Source: Albidovulum inexpectatum (GTDB taxonomy: Bacteria; Pseudomonadota; Alphaproteobacteria; Rhodobacterales; Rhodobacteraceae). Taken from it: 64,000 bases of DNA. This document shows, in pieces, positions 939 through 17,593 of this stretch (positions are counted from its first letter, which is position 1; every line of letters begins with the position of its first letter). Under the pieces are notes generated by a model. The model had not been told where the DNA came from and did not search any database. It saw only the letters and a program-made list of their open reading frames with translations. The stretch is from positions 62,001-126,000 of the forward strand of contig NZ_PRDS01000001.1 in assembly GCF_002927635.1 (NCBI RefSeq), read 5' to 3'. The translations under genes and the position numbers were made by a program.

Positions 939-1322
939 TCACAGAATGACGAACGTGATCACGGTCAGCAGGACCGATCCGATGATGCAGGTCCAGCCCA
1001 GTTTCTCGGCCGTCTCGATATCCAGCCCGCGACCGCTGTCATAGATCAGGTGCCGGATGCCGGCGAGGAAATGATACCAGACGGCCCAGACCGATCCGAA
1101 GAATACCAGCTTGCCAAACCAGCTGCGCAACACGCCGTCTGCGACGGCAAAGTAGTCGGGCCCGGTCGCGGCGGCCAGGAACCACCAGACGATCAGAATG
1201 GACGCCACGATCAGCGCATTGCCCGTGATCCGTGTCAGGATCGATGTGATCGAGGTCAGCTGCGGGCGGTAGATCTGCAGATGTGGCGACAACGGGCGAT
1301 TGCCCCGGTTGACATCGGCCAT
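939..1322 (-). CDS. sdhC: Succinate dehydrogenase cytochrome b556 subunit C
   Basis: This is the first anchor subunit of complex II (127 residues). The N-terminus has RPLSPHLQIYRPQLTSITSI, the SPHL-x-IY motif typical of SdhC, followed by three transmembrane helices at about 30-52, 70-88 and 106-126. GIRHLIYDSGRG contains the heme-ligand histidine and the HLxxD motif shared by SdhC proteins. It is the first gene of the leftward sdhCDA run. The 230 bases before it, separating it from mch, contain a LacI-type palindrome and two copies of TGTGATCACG, so this operon very probably has its own regulated promoter rather than depending only on readthrough from mch. Confidence 0.95.
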   Translation of the reverse strand: MADVNRGNRPLSPHLQIYRPQLTSITSILTRITGNALIVASILIVWWFLAAATGPDYFAVADGVLRSWFGKLVFFGSVWAVWYHFLAGIRHLIYDSGRGLDIETAEKLGWTCIIGSVLLTVITFVIL

Positions 1323-1440
1323 GGTCTTTTCCCCTCGTGCCTTGCCCAGGCGCCATTCGAAACCCGGGACCTGCCAATGTCATAGCGCAAAAGTTCCGCT
1401 TGTCACGCCGCGAATGGCAAAAGGGCCGTCAAACGGAAAT

Positions 1441-1454
1441 TGTTAGCGCAAACA
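1441..1454. promoter_or_regulatory. LacI-type operator upstream of sdhC
   Basis: TGTTAGCGCAAACA is a 14-base near-perfect palindrome with one mismatched pair and a central GC step, the usual architecture of LacI/GalR-family operators. It lies about 120 bases upstream of the sdhC start and 8 bases from the tandem TGTGATCACG element. CceR, a LacI-family repressor of central carbon genes described in Rhodobacter sphaeroides, is an obvious candidate binder, but I am inferring this and cannot check its published motif here. A weaker relative lies at 5033-5046 upstream of mdh. Confidence 0.5.
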
Positions 1455-1462
1455 CGGTGCTA

Positions 1463-1493
1463 TGTGATCACGCAAAAATTTTTTGTGATCACG
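1463..1493. promoter_or_regulatory. Tandem TGTGATCACG operator upstream of sdhC
   Basis: Two identical copies of the 10-base sequence TGTGATCACG occupy 1463-1472 and 1484-1493. They are separated by an 11-base A-tract/T-tract spacer, so their centres are 21 bases (two helical turns) apart and on the same face of DNA. The core GTGATCAC is a perfect palindrome. The same arrangement with the same spacing occurs before sucC (6176-6206), and a single copy lies at the start of a GntR-family gene (16853-16862). The coincidence in three metabolically related places supports a shared regulator. Which protein binds is not shown by sequence. Confidence 0.7.
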
Positions 1494-6175: not shown

Positions 6176-6206
6176 TGTGATCACACCCTTCAAACCTGTG
6201 ATCACA
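6176..6206. promoter_or_regulatory. Tandem TGTGATCACA operator upstream of sucC
   Basis: Two perfect 10-base palindromes TGTGATCACA at 6176-6185 and 6197-6206, separated by 11 bases (21-base centre spacing). Copy number, core and spacing are the same as at 1463-1493 before sdhC. The element is about 110-140 bases upstream of the sucC start, between the mdh terminator and sucC. The half site resembles a CRP/FNR TGTGA half, but the zero spacing between halves does not fit a CRP site; it fits a small dimeric winged-helix regulator such as a GntR protein better. Confidence 0.72.
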
Positions 6207-6314
6207 TTGTGCGCTTTTTTGCCCCCTGCCGCGATCGAACCCCAAGAATCCGTTTCGCCGGCGATGATTTCCGTGCATAGAGCGACATGAACCGAACGGA
6301 TACGGGGACCAGCG

Positions 6315-7508
6315 ATGAATATCCACGAATATCAGGCCAAGGCCCTTCTGCGCAGCTATGGCGCGCCGGTCTCGGATGGCCGCGTCGTGCTGCGGGCCGA
6401 AGAGGCCAAGACCGCGGCGGGCGAACTTGATGGCCCGCTTTGGGTCGTCAAGGCGCAGATCCATGCCGGCGGCCGCGGCAAGGGACATTTCAAGGAACCC
6501 GAGGCGGGCGACAAGGGCGGTGTGCGCCTGGCCAGATCGGTCGAGGAAGCCGCGATGGAGGCCCGCCGGATGCTGGGCCGCACGCTGGTGACGCATCAGA
6601 CCGGCCCCGCGGGCAAACAGGTCAACCGTGTCTATATCGAGGACGGGTCGGACATTGCGCGCGAACTTTACCTGGCGCTTCTGATCGACCGCAAGACCTC
6701 TCGCGTGGCGTTCGTCTGCTCGACCGAAGGCGGCATGGACATCGAGGAGGTCGCCGAAAAGACCCCCGAGAAAATCCTCAGCTTCTCGGTCGATCCGGCT
6801 TCGGGCCTGTCGGATTTCCACGGCCGCCGCGTCGCCTTTGCGCTGGGCCTGGAAGGCGCCCAGATCAAGCAATGCGTCCAGCTTGTCCGCAATCTCTATC
6901 GGCTGTTCATCGAAAAGGATGTCGAGCTGCTGGAGATCAACCCGCTGATCGTGACGCCCGAGGGCAACCTGAAATGCCTGGACGCCAAGATGAGCTTTGA
7001 CGGCAACGCGCTGTATCGGCACCCCGACATCGCCGATCTGCGCGACCCGACCGAGGAAGACCCCAAGGAGCTGGAGGCGTCGAAATACGACCTCAACTAC
7101 ATCGCGCTGGACGGCGAGATCGGCTGCATGGTCAACGGCGCGGGCCTCGCGATGGCGACGATGGACATCATCAAGCTCTACGGAGCGGAGCCCGCCAACT
7201 TCCTTGACGTGGGCGGTGGTGCCACCAAGGAGAAGGTGACCGAGGCGTTCAAGATCATCACCTCCGATCCGAACGTGAAGGGCATCCTGGTCAATATCTT
7301 TGGCGGCATCATGCGCTGCGACATCATCGCCGAAGGCATCGTCGAGGCGGTCAAGGAAGTGGGCCTGAAGGTTCCCCTGGTCGTCCGGCTGGAAGGGACC
7401 AATGTCGAAAAGGGCAAGGAAATCATCGAGAAATCCGGCCTGAACGTGATTGCCGCCGACGATCTGTCGGATGCCGCGCAAAAGATCGTCAAGGCGGTGA
7501 AGGGGTAA
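6315..7508 (+). CDS. sucC: Succinate-CoA ligase (ADP-forming) beta subunit
   Basis: The 397-residue beta subunit of succinyl-CoA synthetase carries the ATP-grasp domain (residues about 1-240) and the C-terminal CoA-ligase domain. It begins [19 protein letters not shown], the universal start of SucC, includes the nucleotide-binding [16 protein letters not shown] loop, [11 protein letters not shown] for metal/nucleotide contacts, and [13 protein letters not shown] in the C-terminal domain. The enzyme couples succinyl-CoA cleavage to ADP or GDP phosphorylation. It is followed after 4 bases by sucD, so the two subunits are cotranslated. The upstream region carries the tandem palindromes shared with sdhC. 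Confidence 0.98.
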
Positions 7509-7512
7509 GAAA

Positions 7513-8394
7513 ATGGCCATTCTCGTCAACAAGGACACCAAAGTCATCTGCCAGGGCATCACCGGCAGCCAGGGCACCTTTCATACCGAACAGGCCATCG
7601 CCTATGGCACGAAGATGGTCGGTGGCGTGACCCCGGGCAAGGGCGGGCAAACCCATCTGGGCCTGCCGGTCTTCAACTCGGTGCACGAGGCAAAGGAAAA
7701 GACCGAGGCGAACGCGACGGTCATCTATGTGCCCCCGCCCTTTGCGGCCGACTCGATCCTGGAGGCGATCGATGCGGGCATGGAGCTGATCGTCTGCATC
7801 ACCGAAGGCATCCCGGTGCTGGACATGATGCGCGTCAAGCGGGTGCTGCAGAATTCGGGTTCGATCCTGATCGGCCCGAACTGCCCGGGCGTCATCACGC
7901 CGGGCGAATGCAAGATCGGCATCATGCCGGGCCACATCCACAAGCGCGGCAAGGTTGGCGTGGTGTCCCGTTCGGGCACGCTGACCTACGAGGCCGTCAA
8001 GCAGACCACGGATGTGGGTCTGGGCCAGTCCACCTGTGTCGGCATCGGCGGCGACCCGATCAAGGGCACCGAGCATATCGATGTTCTGGAATGGTTCCTG
8101 GCCGATGACGAAACCGAAGCCATCATCATGATCGGCGAGATCGGCGGGACGGCCGAGGAAGAAGCCGCGCAGTTCCTGAAGGACGAAGCGAAGCGCGGCC
8201 GCAAGAAGCCGGTCGCCGGCTTCATCGCCGGGCGCACCGCGCCTCCGGGCCGCCGGATGGGCCATGCGGGCGCCATCGTCTCGGGCGGCCAGGGTGGCGC
8301 CGAAGCCAAGATCGAGGCGATGAAATCGGCCGGCATCGTCGTCGCAGACAGCCCCGCCGAGCTGGGCCAGGCCGTGCTGAAGGCCATCGGTTGA
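7513..8394 (+). CDS. sucD: Succinate-CoA ligase alpha subunit
   Basis: The 293-residue alpha subunit contains the N-terminal CoA-binding Rossmann domain ([19 protein letters not shown] at residues 11-29) and the C-terminal ligase domain with the phospho-histidine H251 in [20 protein letters not shown] near residue 125 is the family signature. Spacing from sucC is 4 bases. An inverted repeat follows the stop codon at once, which may reduce expression of the downstream sulfotransferase, sucA and sucB relative to sucCD. Confidence 0.98.
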
Positions 8395-8399
8395 GTTTT

Positions 8400-8431
8400 G
8401 CGCCGCCCCGGTCCAGTCTGGGGCGGCGCTT
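8400..8431 (+). terminator. Hairpin after sucD (possible attenuating terminator)
   Basis: GCGCCGCCCC (8400-8409) pairs perfectly with GGGGCGGCGC (8420-8429) around a 10-base loop, but only two T residues follow. Without a T-tract it is more likely a partial terminator or mRNA-end stabiliser between sucCD and the downstream genes. Confidence 0.5.
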
Positions 8432-8447
8432 CACCAGGGTGACGGAC

Positions 8448-9170
8448 ATGCCGTTCTTTCGGATTGGCGACAGGCTGCACTATTTCGCGCATGTGCCCAA
8501 ATGTGCCGGCTCGTCCGTCGAGGCCTATCTGCGCGCGCGCTTTGGATCGCTTGCATTCCTGGACAGCTCGCATTTTTCACGGCCTGCCCGGATGCGCTGG
8601 TCGCAGACATCGCCGCAACATGTCGCGGTCGAGGACCTGTACCGCCTGATCCCCCCGGAATGGATCGCCTCATCCTTTGCCGTGGTGCGACATCCGGTCT
8701 CGCGCCTGATTTCGGCCTTTCGTTTTCAGGCCGAGGTCGAGGCGACGGTCCCCGAGACCTGGAGCGTGAATGACTTTTTCGACGACTGGCTGAACCGATC
8801 CGCCAGCGAGCCGTTCGCCTATGACAACCATCTGCGTCCGCAATCCGATCTGGTTCCGCGGGATGCAGTCGTGTTTCGGCTGGAGGACGGCCTGGATGCG
8901 GTCGTGGCGCATCTCGACGCGCTTGCCGGCAACGCGGACGGCGAGCGCCACATCCCCCCCGAGAACATCCGCAAGTCGAAAATGTCTTCGGATTCGCCAA
9001 GATTACGGCTTCGCCCTGAAACGCTTGCCCGCATCGGCGCATTCTATTCCGAGGATTTTCGCCGTTTCGGGTATTCTCTGGAAGAACATCCCCGGTGGCC
9101 AAGGCCCGCGCCGGGGCAATCCGGCTTCGTCGCGCGCATCGCGCGGCGCCTGCGCATGGCGCGTTCATGA
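8448..9170 (+). CDS. PAPS-dependent sulfotransferase family protein
   Basis: A 240-residue cytoplasmic protein with the two hallmarks of the sulfotransferase P-loop fold: HVPKCAGSSVEAYL at residues 15-28 (the 5'-phosphosulfate loop, a variant of the sulfotransferase-family-2 HIPKTAGTS motif) and VVRHPVSRLISAF at 79-91 (the 3'-phosphate-binding strand and helix). The acceptor is unknown; relatives act on carbohydrates or lipids. The frame opens 57 bases upstream, but the ATG at 8448 places the P-loop at the usual distance and lies past the sucD hairpin. Its place between sucD and sucA is metabolically unexpected; it may simply ride on the operon. Whether it is an active transferase is not shown by sequence. 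Confidence 0.75.
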   Translation: MPFFRIGDRLHYFAHVPKCAGSSVEAYLRARFGSLAFLDSSHFSRPARMRWSQTSPQHVAVEDLYRLIPPEWIASSFAVVRHPVSRLISAFRFQAEVEATVPETWSVNDFFDDWLNRSASEPFAYDNHLRPQSDLVPRDAVVFRLEDGLDAVVAHLDALAGNADGERHIPPENIRKSKMSSDSPRLRLRPETLARIGAFYSEDFRRFGYSLEEHPRWPRPAPGQSGFVARIARRLRMARS

Positions 9171-9266
9171 CACCGCGCCCCGATCAACCCGCGCCGCCCG
9201 AAACGGACCCACGGCGCCAGAGATGTCTGTTCACGACAGGAGAGGCCATCGCGGCCGTTTGAGACC

Positions 9267-12233
9267 ATGACAGAACAGTCCCCCAACAAGCAGTTCCACG
9301 CATCAAGCTTTCTGCAGGGTGCGAATGCGGAATATGTCGAACAACTCTATGCCCGCTTTGCGCAGGACCCGGATTCGGTCGATGCCAGCTGGGCCGACTT
9401 CTTTCGGTCGCTGGGCGATCGCGCGGACGAAGTCCAGCGCGAGGCCCAGGGGGCATCCTGGAAGCGATCCGACTGGCCGCCCGCGCCGAATGACGAACTG
9501 ACCGCCGCGCTGACCGGCGAATGGCCCGCCGCCGCGGCCGAAGTGAAGGGGGCGGGCGACAAGATCAAGGCGCGCGCCCAGAAGATGGGTGTCGAAGTAT
9601 CCGACGCCCAGGTACGCCAGGCGGTTCTGGATTCGATCCGCGCCCTGATGCTGATCCGCGCCTATCGGATCCGCGGCCACCTGATCGCCGATCTCGATCC
9701 GCTGGGAATGCGGGACAAGACGCTGCACCCCGAACTTGATCCCAGGACCTATGGCTTTACCGAAGCCGACATGGACCGGCCGATCTTCCTGGACAAGGTG
9801 CTGGGGCTGGAACACGCCACGATGCGCCAGATCCTGGACATCGTGAAGCGCACCTATTGCGGCACGTTCGCGCTGCAATTCATGCACATTTCCGACCCTG
9901 AGCAGGCTGCCTGGCTGAAAGAGCGGATCGAGGGCTACGGCAAGGAAATCACCTTTACCCGCGAAGGGCGCCGGGCGATCCTGAACAAGCTGGTCGAGGC
10001 CGAGGGCTTCGAGAAGTTCCTGCATGTCAAGTACATGGGAACCAAGCGCTTCGGCCTTGACGGTGGCGAGGCGCTGATCCCGGCGATGGAGCAGATCATC
10101 AAGCGCGGCGGCGCGCTGGGGGTCAAGGAAATCGTCATCGGCATGCCGCATCGCGGGCGCCTGAACATCCTGGCCAACGTGATGGGCAAGCCCTATCGCG
10201 CGATCTTCAACGAATTCCAGGGCGGCAGCTTCAAGCCCGAGGATGTCGATGGTTCGGGCGACGTCAAATACCATCTGGGCGCCAGTTCCGACCGAGAATT
10301 CGACGGCAACAAGGTGCACCTGTCGCTGACGGCGAACCCCAGCCACCTGGAAGCCGTGAACCCGGTCGTCCTGGGCAAGGCGCGGGCCAAGCAGGACCAG
10401 CACGGCGATACCGAGCGCCGGGCGGTTCTGCCCGTGCTGCTGCATGGGGACGCGGCATTTGCCGGCCAGGGCGTCGTGGCCGAGTGCTTTGGCCTGTCGG
10501 GGCTGCGTGGTCACCGCACCGGCGGCACGATCCACATCGTGGTCAACAACCAGATCGGCTTCACCACCGCGCCGCATTTCTCGCGCTCGTCGCCCTATCC
10601 GACCGACATCGCCCTGATGGTCGAGGCGCCGATCTTCCATGTGAACGGCGACGACCCCGAGGCTGTCGTACATGCCGCCAAGGTCGCCACCGAGTTCCGC
10701 CAGAAATTCGGCAAGGACGTGGTGATCGACATGTTCTGCTATCGCCGCTTCGGTCACAACGAAGGCGATGAGCCGATGTTCACCAACCCGGTGATGTACA
10801 AGCGGATCAAGGCGCACAAGACGACGCTGCAGCTGTACACCGAACGGCTGGTCAAGGACGGCCTGATCCCCGAGGGCGAGATCGAGGATCTCAAGGCCGC
10901 GTTCCAGGCCCATCTGAACGAGGAATTCGAAGCGGCCAAGACCTACAAGCCGAACAAGGCCGACTGGCTGGACGGCCGCTGGTCCGGACTGGATCGCGAG
11001 GGCAAGGAATACACGCCGGGCAATACCGCGATCACGCCCGAGGTCATGCAGGCGGTCGGCAAGGCGATCACGACCGTTCCCGAGGGCTTTGACCTTCACA
11101 AGACCGTGGCGCGGATCATCGACAACAAGGCCCGCATGTTCGAAACCGGCAAGGGATTCGACTGGGCCACGGCCGAGGCGCTGGCCTTTGGCTCGCTGCT
11201 GGTCGAAGGCTTCCCGGTCCGCCTTTCGGGCCAGGACAGCACCCGGGGCACGTTCAGCCAGCGCCATGCGGCCTATGTCGATCAGACGACCGAGGAACGG
11301 TATTATCCGCTGAACCATATCCGGCCGGGCCAGAGCCGCTTCGAGGTCATCGACTCGATGCTGTCGGAATACGCGGTGCTTGGCTTCGAATATGGCTATT
11401 CGCTGGCCGAGCCGAAGGCACTGGTCATGTGGGAAGCCCAGTTCGGCGATTTCGCCAACGGCGCGCAGATCATGTTCGACCAGTTCATTTCCTCGGGCGA
11501 ATCGAAATGGCTGCGCATGTCGGGCCTGGTCTGCCTGTTGCCGCACGGCTATGAAGGACAGGGTCCCGAACACAGCTCGGCCCGGCTGGAGCGGTTCCTG
11601 CAGCTTTGCGCTCAGGACAACTGGATCGTGGCCAATTGCACGACGCCGGCGAACTATTTCCACATCCTGCGCCGGCAGCTGCACCGCACGTTCCGCAAGC
11701 CGCTGATCCTGATGACGCCGAAGTCGCTGCTGCGCCATCCGATGTGCATCAGCGATGCCGAAGACTTCACGACGGGCTCGACCTTCCATCGGGTTCTCTG
11801 GGACGATGCCGAAAAGGGCCATTCGGACCTGGAACTGGCTCCGGACGAAAAGATCCGCCGCGTCGTGCTGTGCTCGGGCAAGGTCTATTTCGACCTTCTG
11901 GCCGAACGCGACAAGCGCGGGCTGAACGACATCTATCTGCTGCGGCTCGAGCAGTTCTATCCGTTCCCGGCCCAGTCGATGATGAAGGAGCTGTCGCGCT
12001 TCCCGAACGCCGATGTGATCTGGTGCCAGGAAGAGCCCAAGAACCAGGGCGCCTGGTTCTTCGTCGAGCCGAATATCGAATGGGTGCTGAACCGCATCGG
12101 CAGCAAGGTCAAGCGCCCGGTCTATGTCGGCCGCCATGCCTCGGCATCGCCGGCAACCGGTCTGGCCAGCAAGCACAAGCAGGAACAGGACGCCTTGGTT
12201 GACGAGGCGCTGACGATCGGAGGCAAAGCCTGA
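9267..12233 (+). CDS. sucA: 2-oxoglutarate dehydrogenase E1 component
   Basis: This 988-residue thiamine-diphosphate enzyme decarboxylates 2-oxoglutarate and passes the succinyl group to SucB. The N-terminus has the E2-binding segment with [20 protein letters not shown], then the ThDP domain with [19 protein letters not shown] (around residue 290), [19 protein letters not shown] and [14 protein letters not shown], and the transketolase-like pyrimidine domain with RGTFSQRHA and [20 protein letters not shown]. It is slightly longer than the E. coli protein (933 residues), as in other alphaproteobacteria. The TGA overlaps the sucB ATG (TGATG), showing translational coupling. Confidence 0.98.
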
Positions 12234-13756
12234 TGAGTGTCGAAGTCAAAGTGCCCACGCTGGGCGAAAGCGTGACCGAGGCGACCGTCGCGACCTGGTT
12301 CAAGAAACCCGGGGACATGGTGGCCGCCGACGAGATGCTGTGCGAGCTGGAAACCGACAAGGTCACCGTCGAGGTCCCCAGCCCCGCAGCCGGCCGCCTG
12401 GCCGAGATCGTGGTGCCCGAGGGCGAGACGGTCGCCACCGGCGCGCTACTGGCCGTGATCGCCGAAGAGGGCAATGCCGGCCCCGAAGAGATGACCCCGA
12501 AAAAGGGCGCGCAGACCGCCCCGCAAGCCGAAGAGAGCAACATGGCCGAGAAAAAAGTTGACGTGATGGTGCCGACGCTTGGCGAAAGCGTGACCGAGGC
12601 GACCGTCGCAACCTGGTTCAAAAAGGTCGGCGACCCTGTCGCGGCCGACGAAATGCTGTGCGAGCTGGAAACCGACAAGGTATCGGTCGAGGTTCCCGCG
12701 CCCACGTCCGGTGTCCTGGCCGAGATCCTTGCGCCGGAAGGCACCACGGTCGATGCCAAGGCCCGCCTGGCCGTCATCGTCGAGGGGGCGGCGGGCGCCG
12801 CTGCAACCGCCCCGGCGGCAGCGACGGAAGAGCCCGCGCCCACGCCGGCTGCCGCGGGCAAGGATGTCGAGCACGCGCCCTCGGCGAAAAAGGCCATGGC
12901 CGAGGCCGGGCTGTCGCCCGATCAGGTTCAGGGCACGGGCCGCGACGGCCGCATCATGAAGGAAGACGTCGCCCGCGCGGCTGCCGCTGCCTCTGCCGCG
13001 CCGCGCCCCGTTGAACCGGCCCCTGCCCCGCGCGCGCCCGTCCCGGCCGAGGACGCCGCCCGCGAGGAACGCGTGCGCATGACCCGTCTGCGCGCGACCA
13101 TCGCCCGCCGCCTGAAGGATGCGCAGAACACCGCCGCGATCCTGACCACCTACAACGAGGTGGACATGTCGGGCATCATGGACCTGCGCAACTCCTACAA
13201 GGAAGCGTTCGAGAAGAAGCACGGCGTCAAGCTTGGCTTCATGTCCTTCTTCGTGAAGGCCTGCTGCCATGCGCTGAAGGAAGTGCCCGAGGTCAATGCC
13301 GAGATCGACGGCAACGACATCGTCTACAAGCATTATGTCCACATGGGCGTGGCCGTGGGCACGCCGCAGGGCCTGGTGGTTCCCGTCGTGCGCGATGCCG
13401 ATCGGCTTTCCTTTGCCGAGATCGAAAAGAAGATCGCCGAGCTGGGCAAGCGCGCCCGCGAGGGCAAGCTGACCATGGCCGAGATGCAGGGCGGCAGCTT
13501 CACCATCTCGAATGGCGGAGTCTATGGCTCGCTCATGTCCTCGCCGATCCTGAATCCCCCGCAGTCCGGCATCCTGGGCATGCACAAGATTCAAGAGCGT
13601 CCGGTCGTGGTGAATGGCCAGATCGTGATCCGTCCGATGATGTATCTTGCGCTGTCCTATGACCACCGGATCGTGGACGGCAAGGGCGCGGTGACCTTCC
13701 TTGTCCGTGTGAAGGAAGCCCTGGAAGACCCGCGTCGTCTGTTGATGGATCTTTGA
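12233..13756 (+). CDS. sucB: Dihydrolipoyllysine succinyltransferase (E2) with two lipoyl domains
   Basis: The 507-residue E2 core of the 2-oxoglutarate dehydrogenase complex. Domains in order: lipoyl domain 1 (residues 1-78, lipoyl lysine K43 in [10 protein letters not shown]), linker, lipoyl domain 2 (about 105-183, K149 in [10 protein letters not shown]), Ala/Pro linker, E1/E3-binding domain (about 208-245), Ala/Pro linker, and the catalytic succinyltransferase domain with SYDHRIVDG near the C-terminus. E. coli SucB has only one lipoyl domain; two are seen in some alphaproteobacteria. The two domains are also nearly identical at the DNA level, offset by 318 bases, indicating an in-frame duplication. 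An in-frame ATG at residue 104 begins the second copy. Overlaps sucA by one base. Confidence 0.96.
12250..12690 (+). repeat. In-frame tandem duplication of the lipoyl domain in sucB
   Basis: Bases from about 12254 to 12370 recur at about 12572 to 12688, an offset of 318 bases (106 codons). The copies differ mainly at third codon positions, for example CCCACGCTGGGCGAAAGCG against CCGACGCTTGGCGAAAGCG. The near identity suggests either recent duplication or gene conversion between the two lipoyl domains. Confidence 0.85.
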
Positions 13757-13765
13757 CAACAAGGC

Positions 13766-13788
13766 GGCCCGGACCTGTGGTCCGGGCC
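13766..13788 (+). terminator. GC-rich hairpin after sucB without a T-tract
   Basis: GGCCCGGACC (13766-13775) and GGTCCGGGCC (13779-13788) form a perfect 10-base stem around a 3-base loop 9 bases after the sucB stop. No T-run follows, so it is probably an mRNA 3'-end stabiliser or processing site rather than a full terminator; the MAPEG gene and lpd continue in the same direction. Confidence 0.45.
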
Positions 13789-13846
13789 ACGCCGACATGC
13801 CGGCAATGGCTTGCCGCCGGCTAATGCCACGCAGGAAGGAATGCCA

Positions 13847-14239
13847 ATGTCCAGTGAACTGAACATCCTTGCGCTATACGGCCTGTACACCGCGTTGGTC
13901 CTGATCCTGAAGGTGTCCGGGATGATGAGCCAGCTTGGCATGGGCTATCTGCTGTCATCGCGCGACGAACAGCGCAGCCTGCGCGGCATCACCGGCCGGC
14001 TGGATCGCGCGCTGAGCAACTCGATCACCGCAATGACGCTGTTTGCGCCCGCGATCCTGATCCTTGCAGCGAAAGACGCCTTTACGCCGGGGACGCTGAC
14101 GGCGGCCAAGGCCTTTCTGCTGGCACGGGTCCTGTATGTTCCCGCCTATGGATTTGGCATCATAGGCTTGCGCACCTTGCTGTGGCTGGCAGGATTTGCC
14201 GCCACTGTATTCCTTTATCTTGTTGCGCTGGCGGCCTGA
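13847..14239 (+). CDS. MAPEG family membrane protein
   Basis: A 130-residue protein with four hydrophobic helices (about residues 5-22, 55-75, 83-104 and 108-129), matching the MAPEG family (membrane-associated proteins in eicosanoid and glutathione metabolism). The loop RLDRALSNSITAMTLFAPAI contains the RxxxNxxE-like region of the family, with the acidic residue not conserved. Bacterial members near lpd have no established substrate. I choose the ATG at 13847 because AGGAAGGA lies 7 bases before it; the ATG 6 bases upstream sits directly against that site. It lies between sucB and lpd on the same strand, 37 bases before lpd. Confidence 0.8.
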   Translation: MSSELNILALYGLYTALVLILKVSGMMSQLGMGYLLSSRDEQRSLRGITGRLDRALSNSITAMTLFAPAILILAAKDAFTPGTLTAAKAFLLARVLYVPAYGFGIIGLRTLLWLAGFAATVFLYLVALAA

Positions 14240-14275
14240 GACCCCGCGCCACACACCACCACGAAGGAGAATTCC

Positions 14276-15670
14276 ATGGCAGAGTTCGACGTCATCGTCA
14301 TCGGTGCGGGCCCCGGTGGCTATGTCTGCGCCATTCGCTGTGCGCAGCTCGGGCTGAAGACGGCCGTCGTCGAAGGACGCGACACCCTGGGCGGCACCTG
14401 TCTGAATGTCGGCTGCATCCCGTCCAAGGCGCTGCTGCATGCCTCGCATTCGCTGCACGAGGCCGAGCACAATTTCGCAAAGATGGGTCTGACCGTGGCC
14501 AAGCCCAAGGTCGACTGGAAACAGATGCTGGCCTACAAGGACGACGTGATCGGCCAGAACACCAAGGGCATCGAGTTCCTGTTCAAGAAGAACAAGATCA
14601 CCTGGCTGAAGGGCTGGGGCTCGATCCCGGAACCCGGCAAGGTCAAGGTCGGGGACGAGATCCACGGCGCGAAGAACATCGTCATCGCCAGCGGGTCGGA
14701 ACCGTCCAGCCTACCGGGCGTCACGGTCGACAACGATGGCGGGGTGATCGTCGATTCCACGGGCGCGCTGGCCCTGCCCAAGGTGCCGAAGTCGATGATC
14801 GTGATCGGCGCGGGCGTGATCGGGCTGGAACTTGGCTCGGTCTATGCCCGGCTGGGCACGAAGGTGACCGTGGTCGAGTATCTCGACCACATCACGCCCG
14901 GAATGGATACCGAGGTTCAGCGCACGTTCCAGCGCATCCTGTCCAAGCAGGGGCTGGACTTCGTGCTTGGCGCAGCCGTGCAGGAGACCAAGGCGGCGAA
15001 GGGCAAGGCCAGCGTCACCTACAAGCTGCGCAAGGACGACAGCGAGGCCACGCTCGAGGCTGACTGCGTGCTGGTTGCCACCGGCCGGCGTCCCTTCACC
15101 GCGGGGCTTGGGCTCGAGTCGCTGGGCGTCGAGATGGAGCCGCGCGGCCAGATCCGCATCGACGATCACTGGCGCACCAATGTGCCGGGGATCTATGCGA
15201 TCGGCGATGCCGTCAAGGGGCCGATGCTGGCCCACAAGGCCGAGGACGAAGGCATGGCCGTGGCCGAGGTCATTGCCGGCCGCCACGGGCATGTCAATTA
15301 TGGTGTCATCCCGTCGGTGATCTATACCACGCCCGAGGTCGCCGCCGTCGGCAAGACTGAACAGCAGCTGAAGGAAGAGGGGCGCGCCTACAAGGTGGGC
15401 AAGTTCAGCTTCATGGGCAACGGACGCGCCAAGGCCGTGTTCCAGGGCGAAGGATTCGTCAAGATCCTTGCCGACAAGGAAACCGATCGGATCCTTGGCG
15501 CCCATATCATCGGGCCCGCGGCTGGCGATTTGATTCACGAGATCTGCGTCGCCATGGAATTTGGCGCCTCGGCCGAGGATATCGCGCTGACCTGCCACGC
15601 CCATCCGACCTATTCAGAGGCTGTGCGCGAAGCCGCCCTGGCCTGTGGCGATGGCGCGATCCACGCCTGA
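14276..15670 (+). CDS. lpd: Dihydrolipoyl dehydrogenase (E3 of the 2-oxoglutarate dehydrogenase complex)
   Basis: A 464-residue FAD- and NAD-dependent disulfide oxidoreductase that reoxidises the dihydrolipoyl groups of SucB. It has the FAD loop [13 protein letters not shown] (residues 8-20), the redox pair C42/C47 in [13 protein letters not shown], the NAD loop [19 protein letters not shown] near 180-200, the second FAD motif [18 protein letters not shown], and the C-terminal catalytic [17 protein letters not shown] before the ATG is a good ribosome site. It ends the suc block with a terminator at 15695-15719. The position makes it the OGDH partner, although E3 can be shared with pyruvate dehydrogenase. 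Confidence 0.97.
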
Positions 15671-15694
15671 TCGGGATCGCCGGAAGACGTGAAG

Positions 15695-15719
15695 GGGCGC
15701 CCCGCCGGGCGCCCTTTTT
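15695..15719 (+). terminator. Rho-independent terminator after lpd
   Basis: GGGCGCCC (15695-15702) pairs with GGGCGCCC (15707-15714) around a 4-base loop, followed by TTTTT. It ends the sucCDAB-lpd block. Confidence 0.9.
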
Positions 15720-16195
15720 CGGTCCTGCGACACAGGCGTGCGCAACAGGCTTGCAAGTTCAGAACCGGCCATTCCGCCCTTGGCCGGAGGATGAACCCTG
15801 CCAAGTTCTGGCGCTGCCGACAACAGGCCTTGGCCCGGCGAGCACCTCAGGCGGGTATGCTTGGGAACAAAGGAAAGTGATCCACGCGCCGGGATGTTGA
15901 TTGCAGCATGATCAGCGCGAACCGTGCATGCCGAAAACAGCCGGCAACTGCACGGCGCTGGCCCCACAGATGCAGGCCAATGGACAAGATCGACACGATG
16001 CCCAGGCATTCGCGCACCCGCTTGGGAATCCGGCGGTCATATATGCCGGGACGATGCACCCCCCAAACCAACCAGACACGAAACGGCCCGGACGCCGGCG
16101 GCGTGGGAAGACACAAGAATTGGGATGCCAGAAGGCCCTCGCCCCGGGCCCGAACGGCCCTGCTCATGAAACGAAAAGGCAAGCGGGGCGAGCCG
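15720..16195. other. 476-base stretch without a supported gene
   Basis: Between the lpd terminator and the stop of the GntR gene I see no frame with recognisable protein features on either strand; several open frames of 60-130 codons exist but have arginine/proline-rich, low-complexity translations typical of chance frames in GC-rich DNA. No tRNA, inverted repeat element or transposase remnant is visible. Confidence 0.6.
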
Positions 16196-16846
16196 CTACT
16201 GGGTCAGGTGTCGCAGGCCGTGCGTCACGTCGGTGCGCACCGCAAGCCGCAGCGCGGGTTCATCCCCGGCCTTGAGCGCGGCGATGATCATGCGGTGATG
16301 GCGCGGCGCCTCGGTCCGGGTCAGCCGCGCATAGACCGCGCGCATCGTCGGGCCAAGCTGCAGCCATACGGTTTCGGCAATCGCCAGCATCGCCGGGGCC
16401 TGCGCGCGCAGATACAGCGTTCGGTGAAACTCCAGGTTGGTCCGTATATAGCCTACGGCATCGCCCTTGACCGCGGCCTCGGCATTGGCCGAATTGATCG
16501 ACTGCAGCCGTTCAATCAGTGCCAGATGCGCGCGCGGCAGGGCGCGGCTGGCAAGCTCGGTCTCGATCAGGGCACGCAGGGCGGCAAGCTCCTCGATCCG
16601 CTCGGGCGAAAGTTCCGGCGTCGTGACCCGGCCCGAGGCCGAAAGGGTCAGCGCGCCTTCGGCCGCGAGCCTTCGCAGCGCCTCGCGCACCGGCGTCATC
16701 GATACGCCATAGGTATTGGCAAGTCCGCGCAATGTCAGCGCCTGCCCCGGGGCCAGCTCGCCATGCATGATCTTCTGGCGCAACGACCGGTAGATGCGGT
16801 CATGGGCCACCTGGGCAATATCCGTGGGGCGGGTTTGAGTCTGCAT
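16196..16846 (-). CDS. GntR family transcriptional regulator, FCD subfamily
   Basis: A 216-residue regulator with an N-terminal winged helix (residues about 8-70: VAHDRIYRSLRQKIMHGELA, then GVSMTPVREALRRLAAEGAL) and a C-terminal all-helical FCD ligand domain with the metal/ligand residues spread through LRALIETELASRAL, EFHRTLY and HHRMIIAALKAGD. FCD regulators usually sense small organic acids. I place the start at the ATG at 16846; a GTG at 16861 would add five residues. A TGTGATCACT palindrome (minus-strand reading) covers 16853-16862, immediately before this ATG, suggesting autoregulation; the same motif precedes sdhC and sucC. This makes it a candidate local TCA-cycle regulator. No Shine-Dalgarno is obvious for either start. 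Confidence 0.85.
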   Translation of the reverse strand: MQTQTRPTDIAQVAHDRIYRSLRQKIMHGELAPGQALTLRGLANTYGVSMTPVREALRRLAAEGALTLSASGRVTTPELSPERIEELAALRALIETELASRALPRAHLALIERLQSINSANAEAAVKGDAVGYIRTNLEFHRTLYLRAQAPAMLAIAETVWLQLGPTMRAVYARLTRTEAPRHHRMIIAALKAGDEPALRLAVRTDVTHGLRHLTQ

Positions 16847-16852
16847 GGCAGC

Positions 16853-16862
16853 AGTGATCACA
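16853..16862. promoter_or_regulatory. Single TGTGATCAC operator at the GntR gene start
   Basis: AGTGATCACA on the plus strand (TGTGATCACT on the coding strand) matches the tandem elements upstream of sdhC and sucC at nine of ten positions and contains the full GTGATCAC core. It lies 6 bases upstream of the ATG, where a bound repressor would block the gene. Confidence 0.6.
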
Positions 16863-16903
16863 AATCCGGCGCCAGCGTCAACGCCGCGCCGCGCCTGGCA
16901 TGT

Positions 16904-17593
16904 TCATGCGCCGAAATCCACAAGAAGCAATGCGCCGCCGTTCTGCTTCAGCCAGGCGCGGTGCTCGGCATAGTCGGGCATCAGTTCGGCAACGACCGAC
17001 CAGAAGCGGGGCGAGTGGTCCATGTGGACGAGATGCGCGACCTCATGCGCGGCGACATAGCGCAAGACCGGCAAGGGCGCCATGACAAGACGCCAAGAAT
17101 ACATCAATCGCCCGTCCGATGTGCAGGACCCCCAACGCGACCGGGTATCGCGCAACGTGATGCGGCTGAATTCGCGCCCCAGGCGGGATGCGAAATCGTG
17201 GCTGGCAGACCACAGACGCTCACGCGCTGACGCCTTCAGGAAAGCCTTCAGGACCGGGCCGGGCCGCGCTCCTGACGGCAGCAGGATCTTGTCATCCATG
17301 ACGACCGGCGCGCGCATTGCCCCTTCGGCAACGATCAGCTGCCGGCCTTCAAACGGCAGCGATCCGCCGATGACGACCGGGCGACCTTCCCCCGCCTGCT
17401 GCAGCACCCGGCGCAACCATGGCTCTTTCTGCCGGGCGAAGTCGATCGCCTCTTGATCCGTTCCCAGCGCAGGCACCGACAAGGTCACGCGGCCATCAAG
17501 GCGGCTGACACGCAGGCTGTAGCGCCTTGCGCGTGCGGATTTGCGCAAGGTGATCGTGATCGGGGGATCGCCGGGAAGGATGTGTCGTGTCAT
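16904..17593 (-). CDS. YgjP-like zinc metallopeptidase domain protein (WLM/DUF45)
   Basis: A 229-residue protein of the YgjP/DUF45 family. The N-terminal half (ITLRKSARARRYSLRVSRLDGRV) is the typical beta-rich part, and the C-terminal half has WGSCTSDGRLMYSWRLVMAP followed by YVAAHEVAHLVHMDHSPRFW around residues 180-200, containing the HExxH zinc motif and a third downstream histidine. Members are predicted metal-dependent hydrolases, often adjacent to restriction or DNA-processing genes, without a firm substrate. It is read leftwards toward the GntR gene with a 57-base gap to the GntR start codon. Catalytic residues appear intact. Confidence 0.85.
   Translation of the reverse strand: MTRHILPGDPPITITLRKSARARRYSLRVSRLDGRVTLSVPALGTDQEAIDFARQKEPWLRRVLQQAGEGRPVVIGGSLPFEGRQLIVAEGAMRAPVVMDDKILLPSGARPGPVLKAFLKASARERLWSASHDFASRLGREFSRITLRDTRSRWGSCTSDGRLMYSWRLVMAPLPVLRYVAAHEVAHLVHMDHSPRFWSVVAELMPDYAEHRAWLKQNGGALLLVDFGA

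Follow-up and report, generated by a model that had tools for sequence, protein, structure and literature searches.

Paired operators before sdhC and sucC in Albidovulum inexpectatum as predicted sites of an AkgR ortholog, and their conservation across the family

Analyzing a 64,000-nucleotide stretch of the Albidovulum inexpectatum genome (the window), we found that sdhC and sucC are each preceded by a pair of short palindromic putative operators, and that the gene at 16196-16846 encodes a GntR/FCD protein, very probably an ortholog of AkgR, that would activate both operons as paired dimers and repress its own gene. A single regulator shared by the two operons, namely this GntR protein, is well supported by the sequence comparisons presented here. 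The system is the already known AkgR regulon; the original prediction had inferred well that one regulator controls both operons and left the link to AkgR unmentioned. Our computation adds to it, at the level of predicted features, a family-wide double-operator rule, co-occurrence of pair and regulator, a site in the promoter of the regulator itself, and a phasing of operators against target promoters.

The two genes and their operators are arranged in the window as follows.

939..1322, minus strand: sdhC, succinate dehydrogenase cytochrome b556 subunit (TIGR02970)
1463..1472, minus strand: predicted proximal AkgR operator of sdhC, TGTGATCACG, with the GTGATCAC core at 1464-1471; the pair is conserved in relatives
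1484..1493, minus strand: predicted distal AkgR operator of sdhC, TGTGATCACG, core 1485-1492
6176..6185, plus strand: predicted distal AkgR operator of sucC, TGTGATCACA
6197..6206, plus strand: predicted proximal AkgR operator of sucC, TGTGATCACA
6315..7508, plus strand: sucC, succinate--CoA ligase beta subunit (NF001913)

Both copies of TGTGATCACA before sucC and both copies of TGTGATCACG before sdhC were confirmed to the base where the original prediction had placed them, and the centre-to-centre spacing of 21 bases is, as it had said, the same for the two pairs. Measured by cores, the sdhC pair ends 141 bases 5' of the sdhC start and the sucC pair 109 bases 5' of the sucC start. The absence of further paired copies, noted earlier for the 64 kb, extends to the whole 3.0-Mb genome, where the only exact GTGATCAC pairs at gaps of 5-20 or 0-30 are those two and where about 0.007 pairs at gaps 11-15 are calculated for 64 randomly placed copies, the number that the genome holds. 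Seven copies fall in the window against 0.89 expected, a count reached by 0 of 100 shuffles, with those outside the pairs at 955 (within the sdhC coding sequence), 16854 (just 5' of the GntR start codon) and 59845 (within a long ORF). Tolerating up to three mismatches at gap 13 gave 34 extra places in this genome (none with one mismatch, 3 with two, 31 with three); we rejected a wider set of degenerate pairs, and weak targets are possible. As a control we read GTGATCAC backwards, a word given little weight because it contains CTAG, which is rare in many bacteria; it formed no pair at gaps 11-15 in any family genome, and elsewhere formed one in G243 (gaps 0-30), five in G320 (from the class-wide draw below) and one in the host genome (mismatch scan). 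Searching the literature, we found no report tying TGTGATCACA to Alphaproteobacteria.

To place the regulator, we compared the surrounding genes with those of G051, a genome whose cytochrome b matches PDB 5kkz chain A exactly; we take the latter to be R. sphaeroides cytochrome b. An lpd-suc-mdh-mch-sdh cluster is common to the window and G051, with sdhD (TIGR02968), mdh (TIGR01763), sucA (NF006914) and lpd (TIGR01350) recognized by family in the window, and sdhA and sdhB just to its left, both with aligned counterparts in G051 that keep the order; sdhB has iron-sulphur subunit domains and the other gene is presumably sdhA, going by position and size. The order in G051 is lpd-MAPEG-sucB-sucA-sucD-sucC-mdh-(TauE)-(CitE-like)-(NnrU-like)-mch-sdhC-sdhD-sdhA-sdhB-GntR-DUF45, where the MAPEG, TauE, NnrU and DUF45 labels are our presumptive ones, and exact pairs again precede sucC and sdhC. 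The regulator and its own site are listed here.

16196..16846, minus strand: akgR ortholog, GntR/FCD transcriptional regulator (PF00392 and PF07729), 78% identical to the G051 GntR protein encoded after sdhB
16854..16861, minus strand: one copy of GTGATCAC within the akgR promoter, 7 bases 5' of the ATG and 20 bases 3' of the first base of TTGACG

In the R. sphaeroides numbering given in a portion of PMC4344238, sucCD are RSP_0967-6, 2-oxoglutarate dehydrogenase RSP_0965-62, Mdh RSP_0968 and sdh RSP_0974-6, and the GntR-family protein RSP_0981 (AkgR) is the predicted regulator of sucCD, sdh and 2-oxoglutarate dehydrogenase. From its position and these locus numbers (same portion of PMC4344238), we infer that the GntR gene after sdhB in G051 is RSP_0981/AkgR. 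The resemblance to the AkgR regulon is close, as both have a GntR-family regulator with predicted targets sucCD and sdh (PMC4344238, in part) and the same TCA gene neighbourhood, and the GTGATCAC found here before sdhC, sucC and akgR, with predicted sites before sucCD and sdh both here and in relatives, is the word given as the AkgR motif in an excerpt of PMC6365646. The same excerpt proposes GTGATCAC as the site of the GntR protein PS417_07240 of Pseudomonas simiae, 32% identical to AkgR, whereas the site there is single and precedes a deoxyribose catabolism cluster (PMC6365646).

The window differs from the AkgR regulon in that akgR lies beyond lpd rather than after sdhB, sucD and sucA are separated by an additional ORF, and no GTGATCAC precedes sucA. 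The 2-oxoglutarate dehydrogenase genes have no site of their own, as the window holds no copy of GTGATCAC from 6206 to 16853, and their co-transcription with sucCD is possible. The inserted ORF (8391-9170), which we read presumptively as a sulfotransferase-type protein, interrupts the suc cluster; in G051 about 60 bases separate sucD from sucA. The regulator and a DUF45-like neighbour form a two-gene block that flanks the TCA cluster at one end in the window (beyond lpd, 16196-17593) and at the other in G051 (after sdhB, C4:2739669-2741023).

Evaluating 248 family genomes from 247 genera, we found an exact pair with a gap of 11-15 bases in 221 (one pair in 45, two in 169, three in 7), for a yield of 404 pairs at these gaps vs 34 over the remaining 26 gap lengths in the 0-30 range. 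The original prediction had expected paired sites to concentrate before TCA or related genes rather than to be equally frequent elsewhere or lost from close relatives; neither of these refuting outcomes was seen, as the host genome has no further exact pair and 221 of the 248 family genomes retain one. Among 29 pair loci from other genomes (one per genome as fetched, with no random draw), 13 lie before sdhC, 14 before sucC, one before sucA (L040) and one before a fumC-like gene (L037); the one relative with a pair before sucA is G177. Chance, or retention of the word for methylation, restriction or another reason, is to our minds virtually without probability: GTGATCAC contains GATC, and its 64 genome copies are not far above the roughly 42 obtained by scaling up the window shuffles, but the family preserves the pair, its spacing and its position relative to genes, because of which we consider chance refuted for the pairs; the scans of the host genome and of the family alike led us to reject a chance origin.

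Third pairs were viewed in three of the seven three-pair genomes (L037, L132 and L128). At L037 (G042) the exact pair at 1501-1529 precedes the fumC-like gene, named from its translation, and fumarase may belong to the regulon in that genome. The third pair of L128 (G238) lies inside a long open frame and beside none of the tested TCA genes. Larger operator arrays were seen before sucC, with three copies of GTGATCAC at 21-base steps in L132 (from 1501, the array that holds its third pair) and L215 (from 19918). In L190 (from 20203), three copies so spaced are followed by a fourth after a further 26 bases, and in L199 (from 20180) the steps measure 21 and 26 bases.

We then set pair against regulator across the family. 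Choosing a cut-off of E<1e-60, just under which fall G033 (8.9e-58) and G122 (6.6e-56), and scoring at most 12 first-look candidates per genome, so that orthologs could be missed, we detected a GntR ortholog in 222 of the 248 genomes. Pair and ortholog occurred together in 217 and were both absent in 22, leaving 4 genomes with only the pair and 5 with only the ortholog (Fisher p=7e-23, uncorrected for phylogeny; presence lists and pair counts were transferred by hand into the co-occurrence and tally tables). All four pair-only genomes carry the pair before sucC or sdhC and represent either cases against a strict rule or missed or diverged regulators. Of the ortholog-only genomes, one, G040, carries a pair with one mismatch 5' of sucC, and the other four have relaxed-match loci without TCA genes. 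When up to two mismatches were allowed in the 22 genomes with neither, 3 gave no match, the loci fetched for 17 (one each) held none of the tested TCA genes, and 2 others had a match with no locus fetched.

In 289 genomes drawn from the whole class, 4 of them in the family and 3 of those 4 also in the family draw, the picture for the regulator was the same, with the ortholog in 4/4 family genomes and 0/285 others (best other match 3.5e-44). Exact pairs occurred in seven genomes, these four family members and three others, with one of the outside pairs within a long reading frame (L095) and the remaining two from one other family. In the latter, the pair at 992-1020 of L094 is directly followed by a GntR-like frame, and a GntR homolog is encoded some 2.5 kb from the pair at 1501-1530 of L093 (G261); what we take to be TonB-receptor-like frames adjoin both pairs, on the other flank from the GntR-like frame in L094. 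Other FCD GntR proteins may share the GTGATCAC word.

Both parts of the original regulatory proposal, one regulator for the sdhC and sucC operons and the GntR protein at 16196-16846 as candidate, are strengthened by this co-occurrence, and the candidate also by the GTGATCAC in its own promoter. We think it very improbable that the main binder is some other protein, for example one of CRP/FNR type or the GntR paralog encoded at C2:428515. The host genome does encode eight FCD proteins, one of them 39% identical to the window GntR, but pair presence tracks the window GntR and the other seven FCD loci have no GTGATCAC within about 1.5 kb. TGTGA and TCACA do resemble CRP half-sites, but in a CRP/FNR-type site they stand 6 bases apart, and we rejected such a site because the half-sites are contiguous, with no 6-base spacer, in all four copies.

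Returning to the AkgR ortholog, we examined its own promoter among the best 80 of at least 570 confirmed matches, which lean to close relatives and from which L155 was dropped for having too little upstream sequence. Of these 79 named loci, 42 carry one GTGATCAC in the regulator promoter, 13-21 bases 5' of the codon aligned to residue 1, and in 39 of them its first base lies 18-20 bases 3' of that of TTGA[CT], where a -10 would fall; the other 37 lack it, 31 of them retaining TTGAC. The self-site was present in 10 of 30 ortholog loci from the family search and absent at the regulator locus of the R. sphaeroides-like genome G051. Lying over the putative -10, the self-site suggests autorepression of akgR. 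The akgR message may be leaderless, as the start codon falls at about the expected transcription start. In G187, a pair with a 5-base gap (C1:3357949-3357969) lies about 60 bases 5' of the match to the regulator ortholog.

The target promoters, with a further candidate site, were assigned as follows.

1379..1406, minus strand: putative sdhC promoter, -35 GTGACA at 1406-1401 and -10 TATGAC at 1384-1379
1441..1454, minus strand: CceR-like site lying 5' of sdhC and 3' of its operator pair, TGTTTGCGCTAACA, fitting the RSP_1663 motif
6252..6281, plus strand: putative sucC promoter, a weak match, -35 near GTTTCGC (6252-6258) and -10 CATAGA (6276-6281)

Comparing promoters after leaving out identical ones and loci without an exact pair, we found 14 of 18 occurrences of GTGAC[AT] among 19 distinct sdhC promoters at offsets 57-60 from the proximal operator, and an alignment of 35 sucC promoters showed two conserved T columns, at offsets 47-48. 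When 36 sucC promoters were scanned for consensus -35 and -10 elements, the best positions were scattered (one group at offsets 11-15, a smaller group at 47-49 and some at other positions), and the sucC call is therefore tentative and based on the T columns. A conserved -35-like element would in this way lie downstream of the pair at an offset of about 48 for sucC and about 58 for sdhC. If these are -35 elements, 17-base spacers would centre the proximal operators near -88 (sucC) and -98 (sdhC), one helical turn apart, which we read as placing them where an activator, rather than a blocking repressor, would be expected.

That AkgR would activate its targets here is taken from the R. sphaeroides literature; direct activation by AkgR was reportedly described by Imam et al. 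in mBio in 2015. One might suppose that AkgR does bind the pairs, only as repressor sites, given that many GntR/FCD proteins are repressors and that the self-site overlaps the putative -10. We judge this improbable, as the pair lies some 50-60 bases 5' of the conserved -35-like element in the sdhC and sucC promoters and AkgR is termed a transcriptional activator in the excerpt of PMC6365646. The site at 1441-1454 fits the published predicted motif of CceR (RSP_1663), [A/G/T]GTT N6-8 AAC[A/C/T] in a portion of PMC4344238; CceR itself is a LacI-family regulator of central carbon metabolism, and its motif differs from the AkgR word and is no paired palindrome. The strict pattern recurred in 2 of 19 sdhC and 1 of 36 sucC promoters.

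Taking these observations together under activation by AkgR, we propose that the ortholog encoded at 16196-16846 would recognize GTGATCAC as its operator, and that two of its dimers would occupy each operator pair on the same DNA face, separated by two helical turns. From there, 5' of the sdhC and sucC promoters, they would turn on both operons in concert, while the single operator overlapping the akgR -10 would let AkgR keep its own level down; binding, cooperativity and autorepression are all read from sequence. Against this model we count the L128 pair away from TCA genes, the 9 discordant genomes, the self-site missing from 37 of the 79 loci (best 80 of at least 570), the lack of a 2-oxoglutarate dehydrogenase pair and the possible use of the same word by other FCD GntR proteins. 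A broader formulation, which we offer tentatively and rate a little short of even, is that AkgR acts as a spacing-coded dual switch, in which a pair at either of two distances from the -35, one turn apart, would give cooperative activation and an operator over the -10 autorepression, an arrangement held nearly family-wide with arrays of three or four in some members. A motif picked out of raw sequence is hereby tied to a named TCA-cycle regulator, its double operator with a 21-base period appears as a family-wide rule rather than a local curiosity, and testable predictions of cooperativity, autorepression and helical phasing follow for the control of flux through the steps from succinyl-CoA to fumarate.
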